In this document: in pieces, positions 7,108 to 59,826 of the stretch
Numbering within the stretch: the first letter of the stretch is position 1
Layout of the letters: each line of letters opens with the position of its first letter
Assembly: GCF_034259325.1 (NCBI RefSeq)
Contig: NZ_JAXIVS010000010.1
Location: forward strand, 310,001-374,000
Direction of reading: 5' to 3'
Source of the DNA: Hyalangium ruber
GTDB taxonomy: Bacteria > Myxococcota > Myxococcia > Myxococcales > Myxococcaceae
DNA: 64,000 bases
Made by a program: the position numbers and the translations under genes
The notes under the pieces: model-generated
What the model was told of the DNA's origin: nothing
Seen by the model: only the letters and a program-made list of their open reading frames with translations
Database searches by the model: none

Positions 7108-8586
7108 TCATCGGGAGTCTGAGGGGCTCGACGTGGGCGGAGGTTTGCTGGGGGGAGCGATGGCAGGGGCATAGCACCTGCCTCGGTTGTAAACGTAACC
7201 GTTCTCCGCGCACTCATCGGCGTCCATCGGGAACAGATCCACCCAGCAACCTCCGTTCATGGCTACCTGCTTGCGACCTGGGCACCGGCCCTTTTCGTCA
7301 GGTCGGGACTGCCCGGGAAGAAGCTTGAAAGGCATGTCCCGAGCCATGGCTTTCGCCTCGGAGGGCTCCTGGACAGAGGCAAGTGACGCAGCGAGGGAGG
7401 AGTCACCCAACGCAGCGGTACCCGCATCTGGCACCTCGGAAGCAGAAGCCTCCTGCCCTCGCACGGACATCCCCTCGAGCCGTGTGTGCAAGGCCTGCGC
7501 GCCCCACACGAAGCCCCAGAGCAACCCCATGGCGGCTAGCGCAAGCCAGGGTCTCCATTTCAGGGCACGAGCAAGAAGGCCAGAACGTCTCGGAAAAGCC
7601 ACCGCCCCAGAGGGCGTTCCATCCTCACGGGGCGTTAGCGAGGGCTGCGGTGCCTGTGCGAAACGAAGAGGAAGATCGGCCTCAGGGCCCGCGCGCTCCC
7701 CTGCAACCTCCAGCGCCTGGGCAAGTTCCGCCGCTGTGCCGCGAGCCTCGGGAGACTCCGAGAGCACGCGGAGAATCAGCTCCCGCAGCCGTGGATCCAC
7801 TCGGGGGTTGAGCCGGAGCAAGGGCCGGGGATCAGGACACCCCAGGTGCCAGGACTCCACCTCATCCTGATAGAGCTTCATGGACGGAGGGTACTGCCCC
7901 GTGACGAGACGGTAGGCCGTCACGCCCAGCGCGAAGAGGTCATCGGCAGGCGCGGCCTGGTACCAGTCGGTGGCAGACCGAACGGAAGAGAGCAGGAACG
8001 AACACGCCTCGGGCGAGCGGTATTCGACCGTCCCTGGAGGCAAGGACTGCCACGTGAGGCGGGGAGCCCCCTGGAAGTAGCCCGAGCCGAAGTCGATGAG
8101 AACGGCGCGCCCGTCCGAGCGTCCCAGCAGGACATTGCCTCCCTTCACGTCTCGATGAACGGCGCTGTGGGCATGGGTGGCCTCGAGCGCACGCGCCAAT
8201 TGAGCGAGCACTCGAAGCACCTGTCTGGAGGAGGGTGCGTGCTGCTCGGCCCAGGCGTACAGCGGCGTGCCTTCCACCCACTCCATCACGAAGTAGGGAT
8301 GCTCTGCTCCGAACGCATGGCGCCAGAGTCCATGGCCCAGCAACGCAGGGACACTCGGATGCTGAATGCGAGAGAGCAGTCCCACCTCGCGCATGAACCG
8401 AAGGTCTCCTGGATACACCGCCAGCTTGAGCGCAACAGGGCCAGCGTCCTCCTGCCCTACTCTGACGGCGCGGTAGACGACCCCATAAGCGCCCGCTCCC
8501 TGCCGTTCCAGCACACGCCAGTCGCCTATCTGCGTTCCCGGCGGGAGCCGGGGAGAATGGTCCTCTGGTGCGTGTTCGAACGCCAT
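7108..8586 (-). CDS. Membrane Ser/Thr protein kinase with Cys-containing extracytoplasmic tail (copy 1)
   Basis: 492 aa. Kinase domain in the N-terminal ~285 residues: GAGAYGVVYRA glycine loop, VALKLAVYP lysine, HRDVKGGNVLL catalytic loop, DFG in VLIDFGSGY, and YRSPEA for the APE motif. After a Pro/Ala linker a membrane helix spans about 344-368 (WLALAAMGLLWGFVWGAQAL). The C-terminal tail, predicted outside the cytoplasm, carries GRCPGRKQVAMNGGCWVD and CAENGYVYNRGRCYAP, four cysteines that could form disulfides. ATG 8586 is chosen over GTG 8625 because GGAAGG precedes it by about 8 nt. It is paralogous along its whole length to the kinase at 58303-59826. It points towards the sigma/kinase operon, ending 171 nt from the small gene. 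Substrate and ligand are unknown. Confidence 0.9.
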   Translation of the reverse strand: MAFEHAPEDHSPRLPPGTQIGDWRVLERQGAGAYGVVYRAVRVGQEDAGPVALKLAVYPGDLRFMREVGLLSRIQHPSVPALLGHGLWRHAFGAEHPYFVMEWVEGTPLYAWAEQHAPSSRQVLRVLAQLARALEATHAHSAVHRDVKGGNVLLGRSDGRAVLIDFGSGYFQGAPRLTWQSLPPGTVEYRSPEACSFLLSSVRSATDWYQAAPADDLFALGVTAYRLVTGQYPPSMKLYQDEVESWHLGCPDPRPLLRLNPRVDPRLRELILRVLSESPEARGTAAELAQALEVAGERAGPEADLPLRFAQAPQPSLTPREDGTPSGAVAFPRRSGLLARALKWRPWLALAAMGLLWGFVWGAQALHTRLEGMSVRGQEASASEVPDAGTAALGDSSLAASLASVQEPSEAKAMARDMPFKLLPGQSRPDEKGRCPGRKQVAMNGGCWVDLFPMDADECAENGYVYNRGRCYAPAIAPPSKPPPTSSPSDSR

Positions 8587-8633
8587 GACGGGGCCTTCCG
8601 GTGGAAAGGGTGTACCTCCCTCCACTTATCGCG

Positions 8634-8663
8634 AGGCTACGTTGTACGTAGGCAACCGTCAGC
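8634..8663 (-). promoter_or_regulatory. Palindromic operator-like block upstream of kinase copy 1
   Basis: Read on the minus strand, GCCTACGT (8653-8646), a 3-nt spacer and ACGTAGCC (8642-8635) form an inverted repeat with one mismatch, preceded by GCTGACGGTT. The same 30-nt block, 25 of 30 positions identical, occurs at 58254-58283 upstream of the paralogous kinase. It lies 47 nt before ATG 8586 and 8 nt before the alternative GTG 8625. Conservation outside coding sequence suggests a transcription-factor site or promoter element. Confidence 0.55.
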
Positions 8664-17024: not shown

Positions 17025-17435
17025 ATGGCGGAGCCACGGGAGTGGAGGTTCGGCCTCCAGTACCTCCGCCTCGAGCCCCCGAACGTGCTGTGGATGAAGT
17101 GCCACAGCACCACCACCCTGGAAGAGGCCCATCGCGTCCTGGAGGTCCTCCGGGAGCAGGGCTCCCAACGGCCGCTCATCGGCGTCGTCGACGTGCGCGG
17201 CGCGATGCTCGACTCCGAGGTGGGCAACCTGCTCGCCCGGGAGATGAAGCCTCAGTGGTTCCGGGCCATCATCTACGTGGGCGCGGGCTTCCTGCAGAAG
17301 GCCCTCATCAAGACGCTGGTGGTGGCGCTCTACTTCAACCACCGGTGGACGCGGGAGATCCGCTACGCGGACTCGGAGGAGGAGGCGCGAGCGCTGGTGG
17401 CCCAGCTGCGCGCTCACCCGCCGCGGAGTGACTGA
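17025..17435 (+). CDS. Conserved hypothetical protein, STAS/SpoIIAA-like
   Basis: 136 aa soluble protein with alternating strands and helices: LEPPNVLWMKCHSTTTLEEA, LIGVVDVRGAML, FRAIIYVGAGFLQKALIK, and an HRWTREIRYADSEEEARALV ending. The last segment, a strand followed by xSxEEAxxWL-like helix, is typical of the SpoIIAA-like/STAS fold proteins abundant in myxobacteria. Function unknown. It starts 11 nt after the peroxidase gene, and its 3' end overlaps the convergent gene by 22 nt. Confidence 0.75.
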   Translation: MAEPREWRFGLQYLRLEPPNVLWMKCHSTTTLEEAHRVLEVLREQGSQRPLIGVVDVRGAMLDSEVGNLLAREMKPQWFRAIIYVGAGFLQKALIKTLVVALYFNHRWTREIRYADSEEEARALVAQLRAHPPRSD

Positions 17436-18784
17436 CGCACCTCCGAGGCGAGGGCCGGGTCATCCGCGAAGGAGAACTGCTCGGGTAGCTTCGCGAGCGC
17501 GCGCGTCACTCGGATGCGCCACAGGGCGTGGACGCGCTCGTTGAGCAGGCCGAGCTGGCGCAGGAAGTGCCCCCAGGGCAGCAGGGCCGCGGCGACGGCG
17601 GCCTCGGCATGGGGGTGGCGGTAGCGGCTGTCGGAGTTGGGGCGCGCCCACTCGTGCAGCACCCACTCCGGAGGCAGCAGCAGGGTGGAGGGCTCACGGG
17701 CCACCTTCTCCACCTCGCGGGCCTTGCGCGGCATGTCGGGCAGCAGCACCAGCATCCACGGGTGGAGCAGCTGGGTACGCCCCAGGGGCCAGCCGTGGTG
17801 GGCGCGCAGCTGGCGCTCGAAGGCCATCACCAGCGCCTGCTGCTCGAAGAGGAACTGCTCCGGGGTGAGCTGAGGCCAGAGTTCGAGGGTGCCCTGCCAG
17901 CTCCACTCGCCGGCGCGGTAGGCCAGGGCGCGGTCCAGCCACCCGGCCGCCAGCGGGCCGAAGGGCGCCAGCCGCTCCAGCAGCCCGGGCTCCCCGGGCG
18001 CGGGCTCGCGGGAGAGCACGGCATCCAGCGTGGTGAACACGGCGCGTTGGGCGAAGTCCTCCACGTCCCAGCCGAACAGCCGGGTGCTGTCGCGCACCCC
18101 GGGCCATGCGGCCGTGAGACCCGCGAGGGCCGCGTGGACATGGCCGCGGTAGAGGCACCACTCGGCGAGCTTCAGCAGGGGCACCAGGTGCCCCCTCCAA
18201 GCCGCGAGCCCCATCAACGCGCCGTGGACATCCGCGCCGGGGCGCTCCAGGGCGCACTCCACGCGCCAGCCGAGCAGCGCGGGCTCGGCGCGGTACACCT
18301 GGGGGACCCGGGCCTCCCAGGAGGCCAGCACCCCCTCGAACTCGGCGCCCCGGCCCGCGTCGCGCAGCACGCCTCGGAGGCCCCGGCCCAGCGCCAGCGC
18401 ATCCTCCGCCTCGAAGCGGGGATCGGCGGCCACCTCTCGCGCCAGCGCCAGCCGCGTGTCGAGGGGCGCGAACATGAAGCACTCGTGGAAGGCGCGGGGC
18501 AGCCCGGTGGCGCCCACGCCCTCCCGGGGCCGGGTCGCCGTGAGCCGACGCCAGAGCTCGAGCACCGCCACGGGCAGGATGGCGGCGGAGAGGCCCGGCC
18601 CCTTCCAATCCCTCATCCAGGAGGCGGCGAGGGCCAGTGCCTCCGCGACACCCGCCGCTCTCGCGAGGCGCTCCTCGTCGAGGGTGACGCCATGGTGGCG
18701 CAGGGTGCCGAGGAGGACCTCGGTGGAGCAGGCCCCAAGGCCCTGCTCATTCCATGTCTCGTCGATTCGGTCTGCACCGCTCAT
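17414..18784 (-). CDS. Hypothetical protein, helical
   Basis: 456 aa, no signal peptide or membrane helix. Almost entirely alpha-helical with many Ala, Leu, Arg and Trp (for example HLVPLLKLAEWCLYRGHVHA, EVEKVAREPSTLLLPPEWVL). No catalytic motif recognised; a helical-repeat or TPR-like scaffold is possible. The coding frame is strongly GC3-biased and free of stops throughout, which supports it over the antisense frame. Its 3' end overlaps the convergent STAS-like gene by 22 nt. Confidence 0.7.
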   Translation of the reverse strand: MSGADRIDETWNEQGLGACSTEVLLGTLRHHGVTLDEERLARAAGVAEALALAASWMRDWKGPGLSAAILPVAVLELWRRLTATRPREGVGATGLPRAFHECFMFAPLDTRLALAREVAADPRFEAEDALALGRGLRGVLRDAGRGAEFEGVLASWEARVPQVYRAEPALLGWRVECALERPGADVHGALMGLAAWRGHLVPLLKLAEWCLYRGHVHAALAGLTAAWPGVRDSTRLFGWDVEDFAQRAVFTTLDAVLSREPAPGEPGLLERLAPFGPLAAGWLDRALAYRAGEWSWQGTLELWPQLTPEQFLFEQQALVMAFERQLRAHHGWPLGRTQLLHPWMLVLLPDMPRKAREVEKVAREPSTLLLPPEWVLHEWARPNSDSRYRHPHAEAAVAAALLPWGHFLRQLGLLNERVHALWRIRVTRALAKLPEQFSFADDPALASEVRQSLRGG

Positions 18785-54439: not shown

Positions 54440-57400
54440 ATGCGCCTGCCGAAGAAGAAGCCGACCCCTCTGAAGCCGATCAAGCTGCCCGGATGGGTGC
54501 TGCCGACGCTGCGGCCCCGGGTGCTTCTGGCGCAGCTGCGCACCCGGTATCGGACGGACGTGGCCCCCCTGCTGCAGCCCGAGCACGACGCGGAGTACGA
54601 GGCCAGGCTCTTCGCGACGCTCAAGACCTCCACCCTCCACAAGGCGCACATCACCGTCTTTCCTGAGTACGCCTGGCCGGCGAGCTCGGTCCCTCAGCTG
54701 CGAAAGTGGTTGGAGGTGTCTCTGGAAGAAGGCTGCGCGTGCGTGCTCCCGTTCGAGCACACGCTGCTGAGCAACCTGCCCGAGCTGCTGGACGGGATGG
54801 GCGTGGACGCGACTGAGGCAAAGACCTTCATCGAGGAGCTGGACGCCGCATGCGGTGGCATTGCCAGGGAGCAGGGCTACTGCAACTTCCTCCTCTTCGC
54901 GGTGCGGGCGAAAGGCAAGATCCACCTCGTGCCCCAGGCCAAGCTCGCTCCAGCTGCCTTCGAAGAGCTGGGCCCCAAGCGATTCATCCGGGGCAGCTAC
55001 GTGCGCCGCATCCAGGGAAAGAACCTCTCGGTCGCAACAGCCATCTGCTTCGACTTCATCGCACGGGATGAGGCGACGGATGTACGCCCGCGCGAGGCAC
55101 TTCTGGGAGAGGCAAGACCGGATCTGCTCATCGTCCCCGAGTGCAACCCTTCACCCCTGAATGCCGTGTATGCCCGTGGGCTGGTGGCCCTCTATGCCGA
55201 CCCCGCCTGGGCACGCCAACCGCCCGTGGTGCTCTTCACCAACGTGGCCGCGGGCACATCTCTGCCAGGGCTCAAAAGTTCCTCATTCGGGTCGAGCCGA
55301 GCCTTCGGAATGCTTGGCAGGGTCAGCTCACGGGCGGACTCCTTCTTCCATGAGTTCGGTGGCGTGGTCGCACTCAGGCCCGCTCCCTCCAAGGGATTCG
55401 ATGAGCTGCCGCATCCCACCCAGAAACTGCTGACCATCCGCCCGGAGGAGTCAGCGGTCTGCCTTACCCTGCCCACCCTGGGCTCGGGCCCCACCAAGGA
55501 CCCGGAAGCAGGGCGCATCCATACCGATGTTGAGCCCCTGCGCTATGTCGCGAAGGAGCAGCGCTGGCAGCCGATCCACCACACAGCGCGCCCCCCGCTC
55601 GTGCAGGGCGTTCAGGGCATCCCTACCGGCTTGCTGGAACATGCGCGCCCCGGAGTTCACACCCAGGAGGAAGAGGACTTCGCTCGGTTGCTGCGTCAGG
55701 CCTCGGGCCCGCTCTGGGTTCATGGCCCGCCCGGCAGTGGCAAGTCCATGCTGACGGCCAGCCAGCTCCATTTGCTCGTCGTGAATCCTGGGTTGGCGCG
55801 GGTCGTATGGCTGGACCTGAGCCGCTCGGAGGGCGGCTCCGTGGACAAGCTGCGGGCGGGCCTGCTGCAGGCGCTGGGCAAGCCGCGCGCGATCGACCGC
55901 TCTTCAAAAGAGCAATGGGGCGTCATCCAGCAGGAGCTGTCGCGCCGCCCCACCGTGCTCGTCTTGGACAGTTTCGAGTGGTGGTCTGGCGAAGGCGAGG
56001 CTCCACTGCCGGCGGAGTTGCGGCAGATGGCTTCCTACTGGCCTGGCCGGCTGGTGCTCACCACCCGGGGCGCGGTTCCCGAGGGTGATGCCTTCATCAA
56101 GGTTGCTCGCCTGGATGCGAGCCAGGCCCATGCCTTCCTGAGCCAGGAGGTGAGCCGTCCCGTCGACCGGCTACTCTCGGACGCGGTCCACCGCACCCTT
56201 GGTGGCCTGCCGCTAGCGCTCAGCTGGGTGGCCGGAATGCTGCGCGCCGGGCGCCCTCCCGAAGAGATCTCCGCCGGACTGGAGGTCGCGGAGCAGCGGC
56301 GGGCCCAGAGTGTCGATGCCGATGGGCTGGAGGAACTGCTGAAGGAGAGCACTGCCCAGCTGCCGCCCCAGGCGACCGCCCTCCTGGGCGTGCTCGCGCT
56401 GCTGCCTGCGCCCGTGGAGCATGAGGATCTCGCGGACATCCTCGGTTTGTCTTCCCAGCAAGTCGACGAGGCACTGGGCGAGCTGGAGGCGCGAAACCTC
56501 GTCCTGCGGGAGTCGCGGAGCGAGGGCAAGGGGGGCAAGGTCTACGGACGTCATCCCGTCGTCCGCCAGTTCGGGCGGGAAGCCACGGCCCTGCGCGAGC
56601 ATCACCAGAAGCTCCTCGAGGACTGGACGCTGAAGCTGTTGAGGTCGCATGGCGGCGACAGGCGCTGGAGAGAGTTTCCGCAGGTCTGGCGACGCTGGGA
56701 GCATCTACGCGCCGTGCTGTACTGGCTCTCCGACAGTCCGCTGCCCGCGCAGCAGCGGCGCTTCCTCCAAGGCTGGCGCAACGCGGACTACCCACTCTGG
56801 TCGGGAGGACGCTGGCGGGACCGAGCAGCTCTGGGCCGCAAGGCGCTCGCGGTGGCGAAGCTGCTCGGGGCGGAGGCAGCACATGACGAGGCGCATGCCG
56901 CCTATGACTCGGTGGCGGAGACGGAGTGGCATCTGGGCATCACGCCCCTCGAAGGTGTCTGGCCGCTCTTCGAGCACGCCGAAGCGCTCATGACAGCGAG
57001 CGGCGACCGCGCCGGGCTCGTGATGGTCGACTACTATCGAGGCCGGCTGCTTCGCCATGAGAAGCGGCTGGTCGAGGCGCGAGCGCGGGCGACAAAAGCC
57101 GAGACGGCGGCCCGGGCGCTCCAGGATGAACGCCTGCTTGGGCTCGTCCTCAACCTGATGGCGAAGGTGGAGATGAGCGAGGGAAACCTGCTCATTGCCC
57201 GCGAGCGGTTTGGCGAGGCCCGCGAGTGCTTCAAGCGGCAGAAGGATGACGAGATGGTGGCGATCGTCGACCGCAACGAGGGCCAGCTTGCCTTCAAGCA
57301 GGACCTGCTCGGCCAGGCGCTCGAGCTGCTCGAGCGCTCCATGAGTGGGTTCCAGGCGCTCCGGCTCGAAGTGGAGGAGGCAGAGGCCGCCAATCACCAC

Positions 57401-57550
57401 GCTCAGGTGCTCGCGAAGCTCGGTGAGTTCGACGAAGCCGAGGCGGAGTTCCGCTGGGCTCGAGGCATCATCGAGGAGCTCGGTGCAGCGGTCCGCGAAG
57501 AAGAGTTCAAGCAGACCGAGAAGCTGATTGAGGCGAGCCGGAAGGGCTGA
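54440..57550 (+). CDS. Carbon-nitrogen hydrolase (nitrilase fold) - NB-ARC/STAND NTPase - TPR protein
   Basis: 1036 aa, AGAGGT about 8 nt before the ATG. Residues ~20-345 form a nitrilase-superfamily fold with a complete triad: E76 in VFPEYAWP, K168 in VPQAKLAPAAF, C203 in ATAICFDF, with RPDLLIVPECNPSPLN and VLFTNVAAG as expected. Then an NB-ARC-type STAND ATPase: Walker A G429-P-P-G-S-G-K435-S, Walker B VLVLD510, sensor LVLTTRG, GGLPLALSWVAG. A winged-helix segment (PAPVEHEDLADILGLSSQQV) and about six TPR-like helical repeats close the protein. Layout effector-switch-sensor is that of immune STAND proteins; the effector here would hydrolyse a C-N bond or an amide in a small molecule. No such characterised system is known to me. 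The gene's end overlaps a convergent gene by 44 nt. Monocistronic after a terminator. Confidence 0.9.
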   Translation: MRLPKKKPTPLKPIKLPGWVLPTLRPRVLLAQLRTRYRTDVAPLLQPEHDAEYEARLFATLKTSTLHKAHITVFPEYAWPASSVPQLRKWLEVSLEEGCACVLPFEHTLLSNLPELLDGMGVDATEAKTFIEELDAACGGIAREQGYCNFLLFAVRAKGKIHLVPQAKLAPAAFEELGPKRFIRGSYVRRIQGKNLSVATAICFDFIARDEATDVRPREALLGEARPDLLIVPECNPSPLNAVYARGLVALYADPAWARQPPVVLFTNVAAGTSLPGLKSSSFGSSRAFGMLGRVSSRADSFFHEFGGVVALRPAPSKGFDELPHPTQKLLTIRPEESAVCLTLPTLGSGPTKDPEAGRIHTDVEPLRYVAKEQRWQPIHHTARPPLVQGVQGIPTGLLEHARPGVHTQEEEDFARLLRQASGPLWVHGPPGSGKSMLTASQLHLLVVNPGLARVVWLDLSRSEGGSVDKLRAGLLQALGKPRAIDRSSKEQWGVIQQELSRRPTVLVLDSFEWWSGEGEAPLPAELRQMASYWPGRLVLTTRGAVPEGDAFIKVARLDASQAHAFLSQEVSRPVDRLLSDAVHRTLGGLPLALSWVAGMLRAGRPPEEISAGLEVAEQRRAQSVDADGLEELLKESTAQLPPQATALLGVLALLPAPVEHEDLADILGLSSQQVDEALGELEARNLVLRESRSEGKGGKVYGRHPVVRQFGREATALREHHQKLLEDWTLKLLRSHGGDRRWREFPQVWRRWEHLRAVLYWLSDSPLPAQQRRFLQGWRNADYPLWSGGRWRDRAALGRKALAVAKLLGAEAAHDEAHAAYDSVAETEWHLGITPLEGVWPLFEHAEALMTASGDRAGLVMVDYYRGRLLRHEKRLVEARARATKAETAARALQDERLLGLVLNLMAKVEMSEGNLLIARERFGEARECFKRQKDDEMVAIVDRNEGQLAFKQDLLGQALELLERSMSGFQALRLEVEEAEAANHHAQVLAKLGEFDEAEAEFRWARGIIEELGAAVREEEFKQTEKLIEASRKG

Positions 57551-58058: not shown

Positions 58059-58253
58059 CCCTGCGGCTCAGCCAGATGCGGCTGTTAGCCGTATAACCTG
58101 ATTATTGCTTGGCTGCCTGCCAGCTTCAGCCTTCTTTTCACAAAGGTGCGCATCAAGCCGGTGAGGGGACAAGGTCGGTTCTTCGCCGCCAGGGGTGGGT
58201 GTCCGAAACTGGCTGCACGCTCCTACATGCGGCACATCGTACTGTCTGAGTAC

Positions 58254-58283
58254 GCTGACGGCTGCCTACGTGTGACGTAGGCT
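58254..58283 (+). promoter_or_regulatory. Palindromic operator-like block upstream of kinase copy 2
   Basis: GCCTACGT (58264-58271), 3-nt spacer, ACGTAGGC (58275-58282): a perfect 8-bp inverted repeat preceded by GCTGACGGCT. The 30-nt block agrees at 25 of 30 positions with that at 8634-8663 upstream of the paralogous kinase, with the differences mostly in the spacer. It ends 19 nt before the kinase ATG, a suitable place for a repressor operator or a conserved promoter/leader element. Confidence 0.6.
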
Positions 58284-58302: not shown

Positions 58303-59826
58303 ATGGGCAGAGCACACGTACCCGCGCCGCACCCGGACTGTCTCCCCGAGGGGACGGTGGTGGGCAATTGGCGCGTGGTGCGGCGACAAGGCCAGGGCAC
58401 CTATGGGGCCGTCTACCGCGTCGTTCCCGAGGGCCAGGAATCGGCGGCTCCCGTGGCGCTCAAGCTCGCCCTGTACCCGTGGGATCCGCGCTTCGTGCGC
58501 GAGGTCGTGCTGCTGTCTCGCATCCAGCACCCGAGCGTCCCGAGCCTTCGGGACCATGGCTTCTGGAGGCATCCTTCGGGCGCGGCCCATCCCTACTTCG
58601 CCATGGAGTGGGTGGAGGGCACGTCGCTGTATGCCTGGGCGCGGGAGTCCAACCCCACCTCTCGACAGGTGCTCCAGCTCCTTGCCCAGCTGGCCCGCGC
58701 GCTCCAGGCCACTCATGCGGCCGGTGCCGTGCATCGGGATGTCAAAGGCGACAATGTGTTGGTGCGGCGCGAGGACCGCCGCGCCTTTCTCACCGACTTC
58801 GGCGCGGGGAACTACCCGGGCGCGGTGCGCCTGACGTGGCAGTCGTTGCCTCCTGGGACACCGGCCTACCGTTCTCCCGAGGCGTGGCGGTTCCTGACCC
58901 GCTTCGGCTTCTCGGCGGATGCCCACTACGAAGCCGGGCCAGGCGATGACCTCTTCGCGTTGGGAGTGGCCGCTTACCGGCTCGTCACCGGCGAGTACCC
59001 GTCGGAGGAAGGGCACCTCTGGCTGCCGAACGGCGCCGGCGCGAGGCCTCCGCTGGAGCTCAATCCCCGGGTCGTGCCGCAGCTCAGTGAATTGATCCTT
59101 CGCATGCTCGCGGTACTCGCCGAGGCACGCGGCACGGCGGGAGCGCTGGCCGAGGACTTGGAACTCGCAGCGGAGCGCTCGGGCCTGGAGGCGGATCACC
59201 CCCTCTTCGTTCCTGAGTCGTCTCCTCCCGCGCCCCAGCTTCAGCAGGAGGCCCTCGACCCCTTCCAGCCTCCGTGGGATATGGAGGAGGTGCGCTCCTC
59301 CGAGCAGCCAGCACCCACCCCTCCTGTCGAGCCTGCGCCGATGGAAGCTCAGGTGCCCGTTCCTGGGCCAGCGCGTGCGCGGCGCCCCCGCCTGCCCTGG
59401 TTCGCGGTAGCGGCCGCTGGAGTGCTGCTGCTCCTATGGGCTGGGCACATCGTGCATGCGTGGGTCGAGAAGGTGTCTGCGCAGGCACAGGCGGCGCTGG
59501 AGACGGACGCCCCGGACGCCGGCACTTCGGCTGTCGGGGATACCTCGCTGACAGCGCCTCTTGCTTCCGCTCACGTCCCCGCCAGCCGCGAAGCGGTTGC
59601 CCTTGATGAGTCTCCAAAGTTGTTCCCGGGACAGCGCAAACCGGATGCGAAAGGCCAGTGCCCGGACCAAGAGCAGGTCGCTATCAACGGTGGCTGCTGG
59701 GTGAACGTCGCGATGGGTGCCGACGCCTGTGAGCGCAATGGCTACGTGTACCTCCAGGGCAAGTGCTACGCCCCCTCCTTTGCTCCGCCCCGTAAACCCA
59801 CCTCGGAGCCTGGAGAGCCTCGCTAA
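58303..59826 (+). CDS. Membrane Ser/Thr protein kinase with Cys-containing extracytoplasmic tail (copy 2)
   Basis: 507 aa. Kinase domain ~20-290: GQGTYGAVYRVV, VALKLALYPW, HRDVKGDNVLV, DFGAGNY, PAYRSPEA. Pro-rich linker, membrane helix at ~365-386 (WFAVAAAGVLLLLWAGHIVH), then a tail with GQCPDQEQVAINGGCWVN and CERNGYVYLQGKCYAP. It is clearly paralogous to the kinase at 7108-8586 in domain order, membrane position and tail (NGGCWV, NGYVY and CYAP shared). Both kinases share an upstream palindromic block. The tail likely senses an envelope condition through disulfide-forming cysteines (inference). A strong terminator follows. Confidence 0.9.
   Translation: MGRAHVPAPHPDCLPEGTVVGNWRVVRRQGQGTYGAVYRVVPEGQESAAPVALKLALYPWDPRFVREVVLLSRIQHPSVPSLRDHGFWRHPSGAAHPYFAMEWVEGTSLYAWARESNPTSRQVLQLLAQLARALQATHAAGAVHRDVKGDNVLVRREDRRAFLTDFGAGNYPGAVRLTWQSLPPGTPAYRSPEAWRFLTRFGFSADAHYEAGPGDDLFALGVAAYRLVTGEYPSEEGHLWLPNGAGARPPLELNPRVVPQLSELILRMLAVLAEARGTAGALAEDLELAAERSGLEADHPLFVPESSPPAPQLQQEALDPFQPPWDMEEVRSSEQPAPTPPVEPAPMEAQVPVPGPARARRPRLPWFAVAAAGVLLLLWAGHIVHAWVEKVSAQAQAALETDAPDAGTSAVGDTSLTAPLASAHVPASREAVALDESPKLFPGQRKPDAKGQCPDQEQVAINGGCWVNVAMGADACERNGYVYLQGKCYAPSFAPPRKPTSEPGEPR

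Follow-up and report, generated by a model that had tools for sequence, protein, structure and literature searches.

Features of the locus

The window, by which we mean the whole 64,000-nucleotide stretch of Hyalangium ruber DNA that was analysed, corresponds to positions 310001-374000 of contig C10 (C10:310001-374000) in a genome of 10.77 Mb assembled in 43 contigs. Two protein kinase genes lie within it, each preceded by a copy of the same block. In the following list the parts of each copy are placed in the register of the family profile described below.

7108..8586, minus strand: kinase 1, 492 aa, ATG at 8586, PF00069
8634..8663, minus strand: copy 1 of the block
8657-8662, minus strand: -35-like CTGACG of copy 1
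8637-8651, minus strand: spacer inverted repeat of copy 1, CTACGT-ACA-ACGTAG
8634-8639, minus strand: -10-like TAGCCT of copy 1
58238..58254, plus strand: second palindrome, 17 bp, CGTACT-GTCTG-AGTACG, its centre 27 bp upstream of that of the main palindrome
58254..58283, plus strand: copy 2 of the block
58255-58260, plus strand: -35-like CTGACG of copy 2
58264-58282, plus strand: inverted repeat of copy 2, GCCTACGT-GTG-ACGTAGGC, arms perfect
58278-58283, plus strand: -10-like TAGGCT of copy 2
58303..59826, plus strand: kinase 2, 507 aa, PF00069

Both gene products comprise a Pkinase domain (PF00069), a hydrophobic segment which, read by eye, resembles a single transmembrane helix, and a short Cys-containing C-terminal domain for which no Pfam or NCBIfam match was found at the thresholds used. 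The catalytic K, HRD and DFG are present in the alignment of both (VALK, HRDVKG.N, DFG), and by sequence the two proteins are eukaryotic-like Ser/Thr kinases. Where they align, the two kinases share 58% identity. The gene immediately before kinase 2 (54440-57550, plus strand) encodes 1036 aa, and its product matches NB-ARC/AAA and, weakly, TPR.

The initial annotation had described a palindromic block shared by the two upstream regions, and a re-reading of the sequence confirmed both copies at these positions and strands, 25 of 30 bases being identical, as well as the perfect arms of copy 2 and the distances to the start codons (47 nt for copy 1, 19 nt to the ATG at 58303 for copy 2). Three of the five differences make up the centre (ACA/GTG); the other two are a T/C and a C/G. 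The 29-bp pattern has two matches in the window as against 0.00 expected from 100 dinucleotide-preserving shuffles, and chance is thereby excluded. The description of the palindrome was correct, but it left out that the block is a complete promoter-like unit, CTGACG-N17-TAG[G/C]CT, in which the palindrome covers the spacer and the -10; it also left out the spread of the element through the kinase family, and which of its parts are constant and which variable.

Occurrence in the genome

The long block, with up to three mismatches, occurs in exactly seven places in the 10.77-Mb genome (reversed control, 0), all seven directly upstream of kinase 1 and its six closest paralogues, which are 63-73% identical to it over the matched parts. 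The exact arms CTACGTNNNACGTAG (CTACGT-N3-ACGTAG) are found in only three places genome-wide, and the reversed-pattern control again gave none. It had been proposed that the palindrome is conserved beyond what paralogy of the protein code would explain, and that a high random frequency of the motif, or its lack of conservation upstream of orthologous kinases, would speak against this. Neither was observed: the seven sites each precede a kinase, and homologous kinases of other genera have a diverged form in front of them. The copy number requires revision, in that the two copies seen originally are real but belong to a set of seven close and dozens of diverged ones.

Shorter patterns are less selective. 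Exact matches of CCTACNNNNNNNGTAGGNT nearly all precede family members; with one mismatch there are 97 matches versus 266 in the control, i.e. the signal is swamped by chance. In a search of the taxonomic family for CTGAC-N5-CCTAC the exact matches, among those listed, were confined to the genome itself and three sister-genus genomes, and at two mismatches the reversed control equalled or exceeded the matches in most other genomes, so that the pattern alone is weak there. In a profile scan of 864 kb, the sequence on which the background was estimated in place of the whole genome, the sites scoring above 18 were those of the kinase family and one other, at window 18829; no kinase of another type scored. 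The high-scoring non-kinase sites C2:242785, C4:660156 and window 18829 are not separable from chance, and the last, the sole non-kinase site above 18 in the 864 kb, may be a chance occurrence. It precedes a gene (17414-18784, minus strand) for a 456-aa protein with no Pfam or NCBIfam match.

The element in the kinase family

The H. ruber genome encodes several dozen members of the family, the most distant of them about 45% identical over almost the full length, and related loci are found in Hyalangium, Pyxidicoccus, Myxococcus, Corallococcus, one Myxococcaceae MAG and three sister-genus genomes. Many of the more distant paralogues (about 40-55% identical), in H. ruber itself and in the four named genera, carry in place of the ACGT-armed form the variant CTGAC(g)-N5-CCtACyC-ATG-gRGTAGGnT, in some cases degenerate. 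A position-free mixture model started from a seed motif was applied to 120 non-redundant upstream regions, of which about 100 (about 85%) fitted it; by organism the element was present in 33 of 39 regions in H. ruber, 19 of 21 in Hyalangium versicolor, 17 of 20 in the MAG, 14 of 18 in Pyxidicoccus and 8 of 10 in Myxococcus. Some paralogues possess GGTGC in place of CTGAC, and a number of genes from Pyxidicoccus, Myxococcus and Corallococcus keep the -35 and -10 while having a degraded left arm (CCAATGC...). What stays constant is the -10 together with the mirrored CTAC, the ACGT arms being a subfamily variant, and the two genes in the window together with five others form the subfamily with ACGT arms in the putative operator.

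The flanking DNA from -60 to -20 carries about 0.03 bits per position, i.e. it is not conserved. Since the flanks are flat and the element is kept, it is selection, and not carry-over from recent duplication, that maintains it. Three loci without a kinase, L237 (C7), L243 (C3) and L250 (C22), in which nothing but the N-terminal tail and/or the C-terminal Cys domain is left, have the element all the same, from which it follows that the promoter goes with the gene lineage and not with kinase activity. It is also of note that these remnants have kept both promoter and Cys-containing domain despite the loss of most or all of the kinase domain; the domain may therefore have a role of its own. Among the related loci, upstream sequence is common to L209 and L167, and likewise to L211 and L127, so that one of the related genomes appears to be that of Hyalangium versicolor.

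A probable core promoter

Across the 120 upstream regions the highest information resides in the T, A and last T of TAGGnT (2.0, 2.3 and 2.2 bits), and the TANNNT pattern of a -10 box is present with T at 0.93, A at 0.98 and the last T at 0.96. In both window copies and about one third of the family CTGAC lies 17 bp upstream of the -10; the remaining members have GGTGC or no clear box at this place. Leader lengths, counted from the -10 to the ATG, are grouped at 36-49 nt, and a minority are 7-10 nt. The TAgg.T information profile, with CTGACg 17 bp upstream, points to a sigma70-type promoter. That the block represents the core promoter of a dispersed family of predicted myxobacterial membrane Ser/Thr kinases is well supported, and we infer that it is used as such by RNA polymerase: a sigma70-type holoenzyme would employ CTGACg as the -35 and TAG[G/N]nT as the -10, 17 bp apart, and transcription would start about 7 nt past the -10, so that the leaders would range in length between near zero and about 45 nt.

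A TAGRRT-like -10 is known from sigma70-type promoters of high-GC bacteria, for example those read by actinobacterial HrdB/SigA. The kinase promoters resemble these in their TAGGnT, which in the window copies and about a third of the family stands 17 bp from CTGAC, a sequence similar to a TTGAC -35. They differ in the mirror-image CTAC conserved in the spacer, which the other GTAGGNT sites in the 864 kb of this genome mostly lack.

Dyad symmetry and a putative operator

The inverted repeat is a 17-bp dyad (7-N3-7), CCtACnn-N3-nnGTAGG, situated in the spacer and -10 and fixed in length in the full-type sites. Pairing of the arms is 66% in register and no more than 35% in any slid register tested. 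Covariation is seen at one inner pair (CG 45, TA 13, GC 6; z 5.3, a score that, like the others given here, counts paralogues as independent although they are related); at the other arm positions covariation is no greater than the column composition predicts, so that the symmetry for the most part reflects a fixed consensus. The most important control is the comparison with other GTAGGNT sites in the 864 kb: AC occurs in the mirrored position at 59 of 65 kinase-family sites and at 5 of 65 others, and on average 4.7 of the 7 dyad pairs are formed at the former as against 1.9 of 7 at the latter. As expected of the binding site of a dimer, the dyad is of fixed length beyond chance, and the same site recurs at several promoters of one gene set and is rare elsewhere in the 864 kb.

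When the profile of this proximal box was run over the upstream regions, the best score off the box fell exactly 28 bp upstream across the family (z about 5). This distal box, ACCY-N3-RGRG, abuts the -35 and is a weaker or degenerate copy of the proximal one, with almost no (marginal) dyad symmetry across the family. In copy 2 this place is occupied by the clear 17-bp palindrome listed above at 58238-58254 (CGTACT-N5-AGTACG). There is moderate evidence that this second box is a family-wide feature.

We think it rather probable that the genes have inherited a promoter with an embedded operator for a putative dimeric regulator, most likely a repressor. The 17-bp dyad would be the operator of this DNA-binding protein, and the weaker box just upstream of the -35 may assist its binding. 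Repression is the likelier sign because the right half-site is the -10 itself, so that a protein bound on the dyad would exclude the polymerase. Many kinase paralogues would then be expressed under common control, exerted by a single regulator or a small number of related ones. That such a regulator exists, its sign, and the co-regulation of the paralogues are what we infer. More tentatively, and with rather less than even confidence, one may picture a dedicated regulator or a few paralogous ones with matched codes (ACGT versus YC/GR arms) ruling several dozen scattered sensor kinases; if this were true they would constitute one regulon conserved across the Myxococcaceae, in which whole receptor subfamilies are switched together.

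Alternative explanations

The main rival to an operator is that the block is a core promoter and nothing else, the whole string being read by a housekeeping or alternative sigma factor, with incidental symmetry and no separate regulator. We regard this as unlikely, though it deserves serious consideration: the -10 positions hold the most information, some genera keep the -35 and -10 with a degraded left arm, and covariation between the arms is weak but for one pair. What it leaves unexplained is that the conserved positions of the left arm mirror those of the right at a constant 17 bp and are absent at ordinary GTAGGNT sites, and that ACC-N3-RGRG recurs 28 bp upstream without the -10 T, which a sigma factor alone would not predict. 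Passive carry-over, in which the block was merely copied along with recently duplicated genes, might be suspected from four paralogues at 72-73% identity whose upstream similarity extends slightly beyond the block (AAAGTCTGCTGACGG). It is hardly credible, given that the element is shared by proteins only about 40-50% identical and by different genera, and that the adjacent DNA has no residual similarity, the flat flank profile contradicting it.

Were transcription to start further upstream, CCTAC...GTAGG could fold in the mRNA 5' leader and control translation; the repeat can indeed pair, and T-G (G-U in RNA) combinations occur at the inner pairs. We nevertheless consider an RNA hairpin very improbable, as the arm bears the -10 signature with its last T outside the repeat, TAGGnT lies only 7-10 nt from the ATG in several members, as for a leaderless or short-leader start, and no common structure is supported for the downstream leader. 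The presence of TAGG or its complement in each arm might also suggest a symmetric, bidirectional promoter with the left arm serving as the reverse-strand -10 for divergent transcription. Positions 10 and 30 are complementary in 8%, which is below expectation, A is rare at position 10, no conserved reverse -35 is found downstream, and the final T of TAGGnT is unmirrored; on the last point we rejected the proposal, to which we attach next to no probability.

Relation to known systems

Operators of 17 bp that bind a dimer and overlap sigma70-type promoters are familiar from lambda CI and other HTH-type repressors. The arrangement proposed here is similar in that a 17-bp dyad covers the spacer and -10 and a weaker second site may lie upstream; it is unlike them in that the putative operator is distributed over dozens of scattered paralogues and not one locus or operon.

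The downstream genes belong to an expanded class, eukaryotic-like Ser/Thr kinases numbering about 90-125 per genome in myxobacteria according to the counts in PMC7694542; the part of that paper dealing with these counts makes no mention of a shared promoter motif of a kinase family. No earlier description of the element was found in the open-access literature. With some hundred Ser/Thr kinases in each myxobacterial genome, the element bears on how paralogous receptors are deployed: the shared promoter-operator defines, from sequence alone, a candidate set of co-regulated kinases, it offers a testable site for finding the putative regulator, and the operator type lets subfamilies be assigned. 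Selection on the promoter architecture has persisted after the paralogues diverged to about 45% identity.

Leaders and other nearby repeats

A G/C-rich hairpin ahead of the ribosome-binding site is frequent in leaders of about 45 nt; in the leader of kinase 1 (window 8587-8633, minus strand) it reads GTGGAGGG...CCYTYCAC. By eye a conserved leader hairpin seemed likely, but a common structure of the leaders was not supported (mean z -0.33; consensus energy -0.36 kcal/mol).

Further repeats are found at individual loci. The kinases L017 and L022 (C2:368393 and C10:225707) have a common inverted repeat around CTGTCTGACAACCAGACAG upstream of the promoter element. At L033 (C4:211525-211580) and L034 (C4:30574-30682) palindromes GACTACTAACCAGTTAGTAGTC in tandem, with a spacing of about 44-53 bp, sit upstream of the shared promoter of these two family kinases, and the five genome-wide occurrences of their core CTAACCAGTTAG are all at these two loci.
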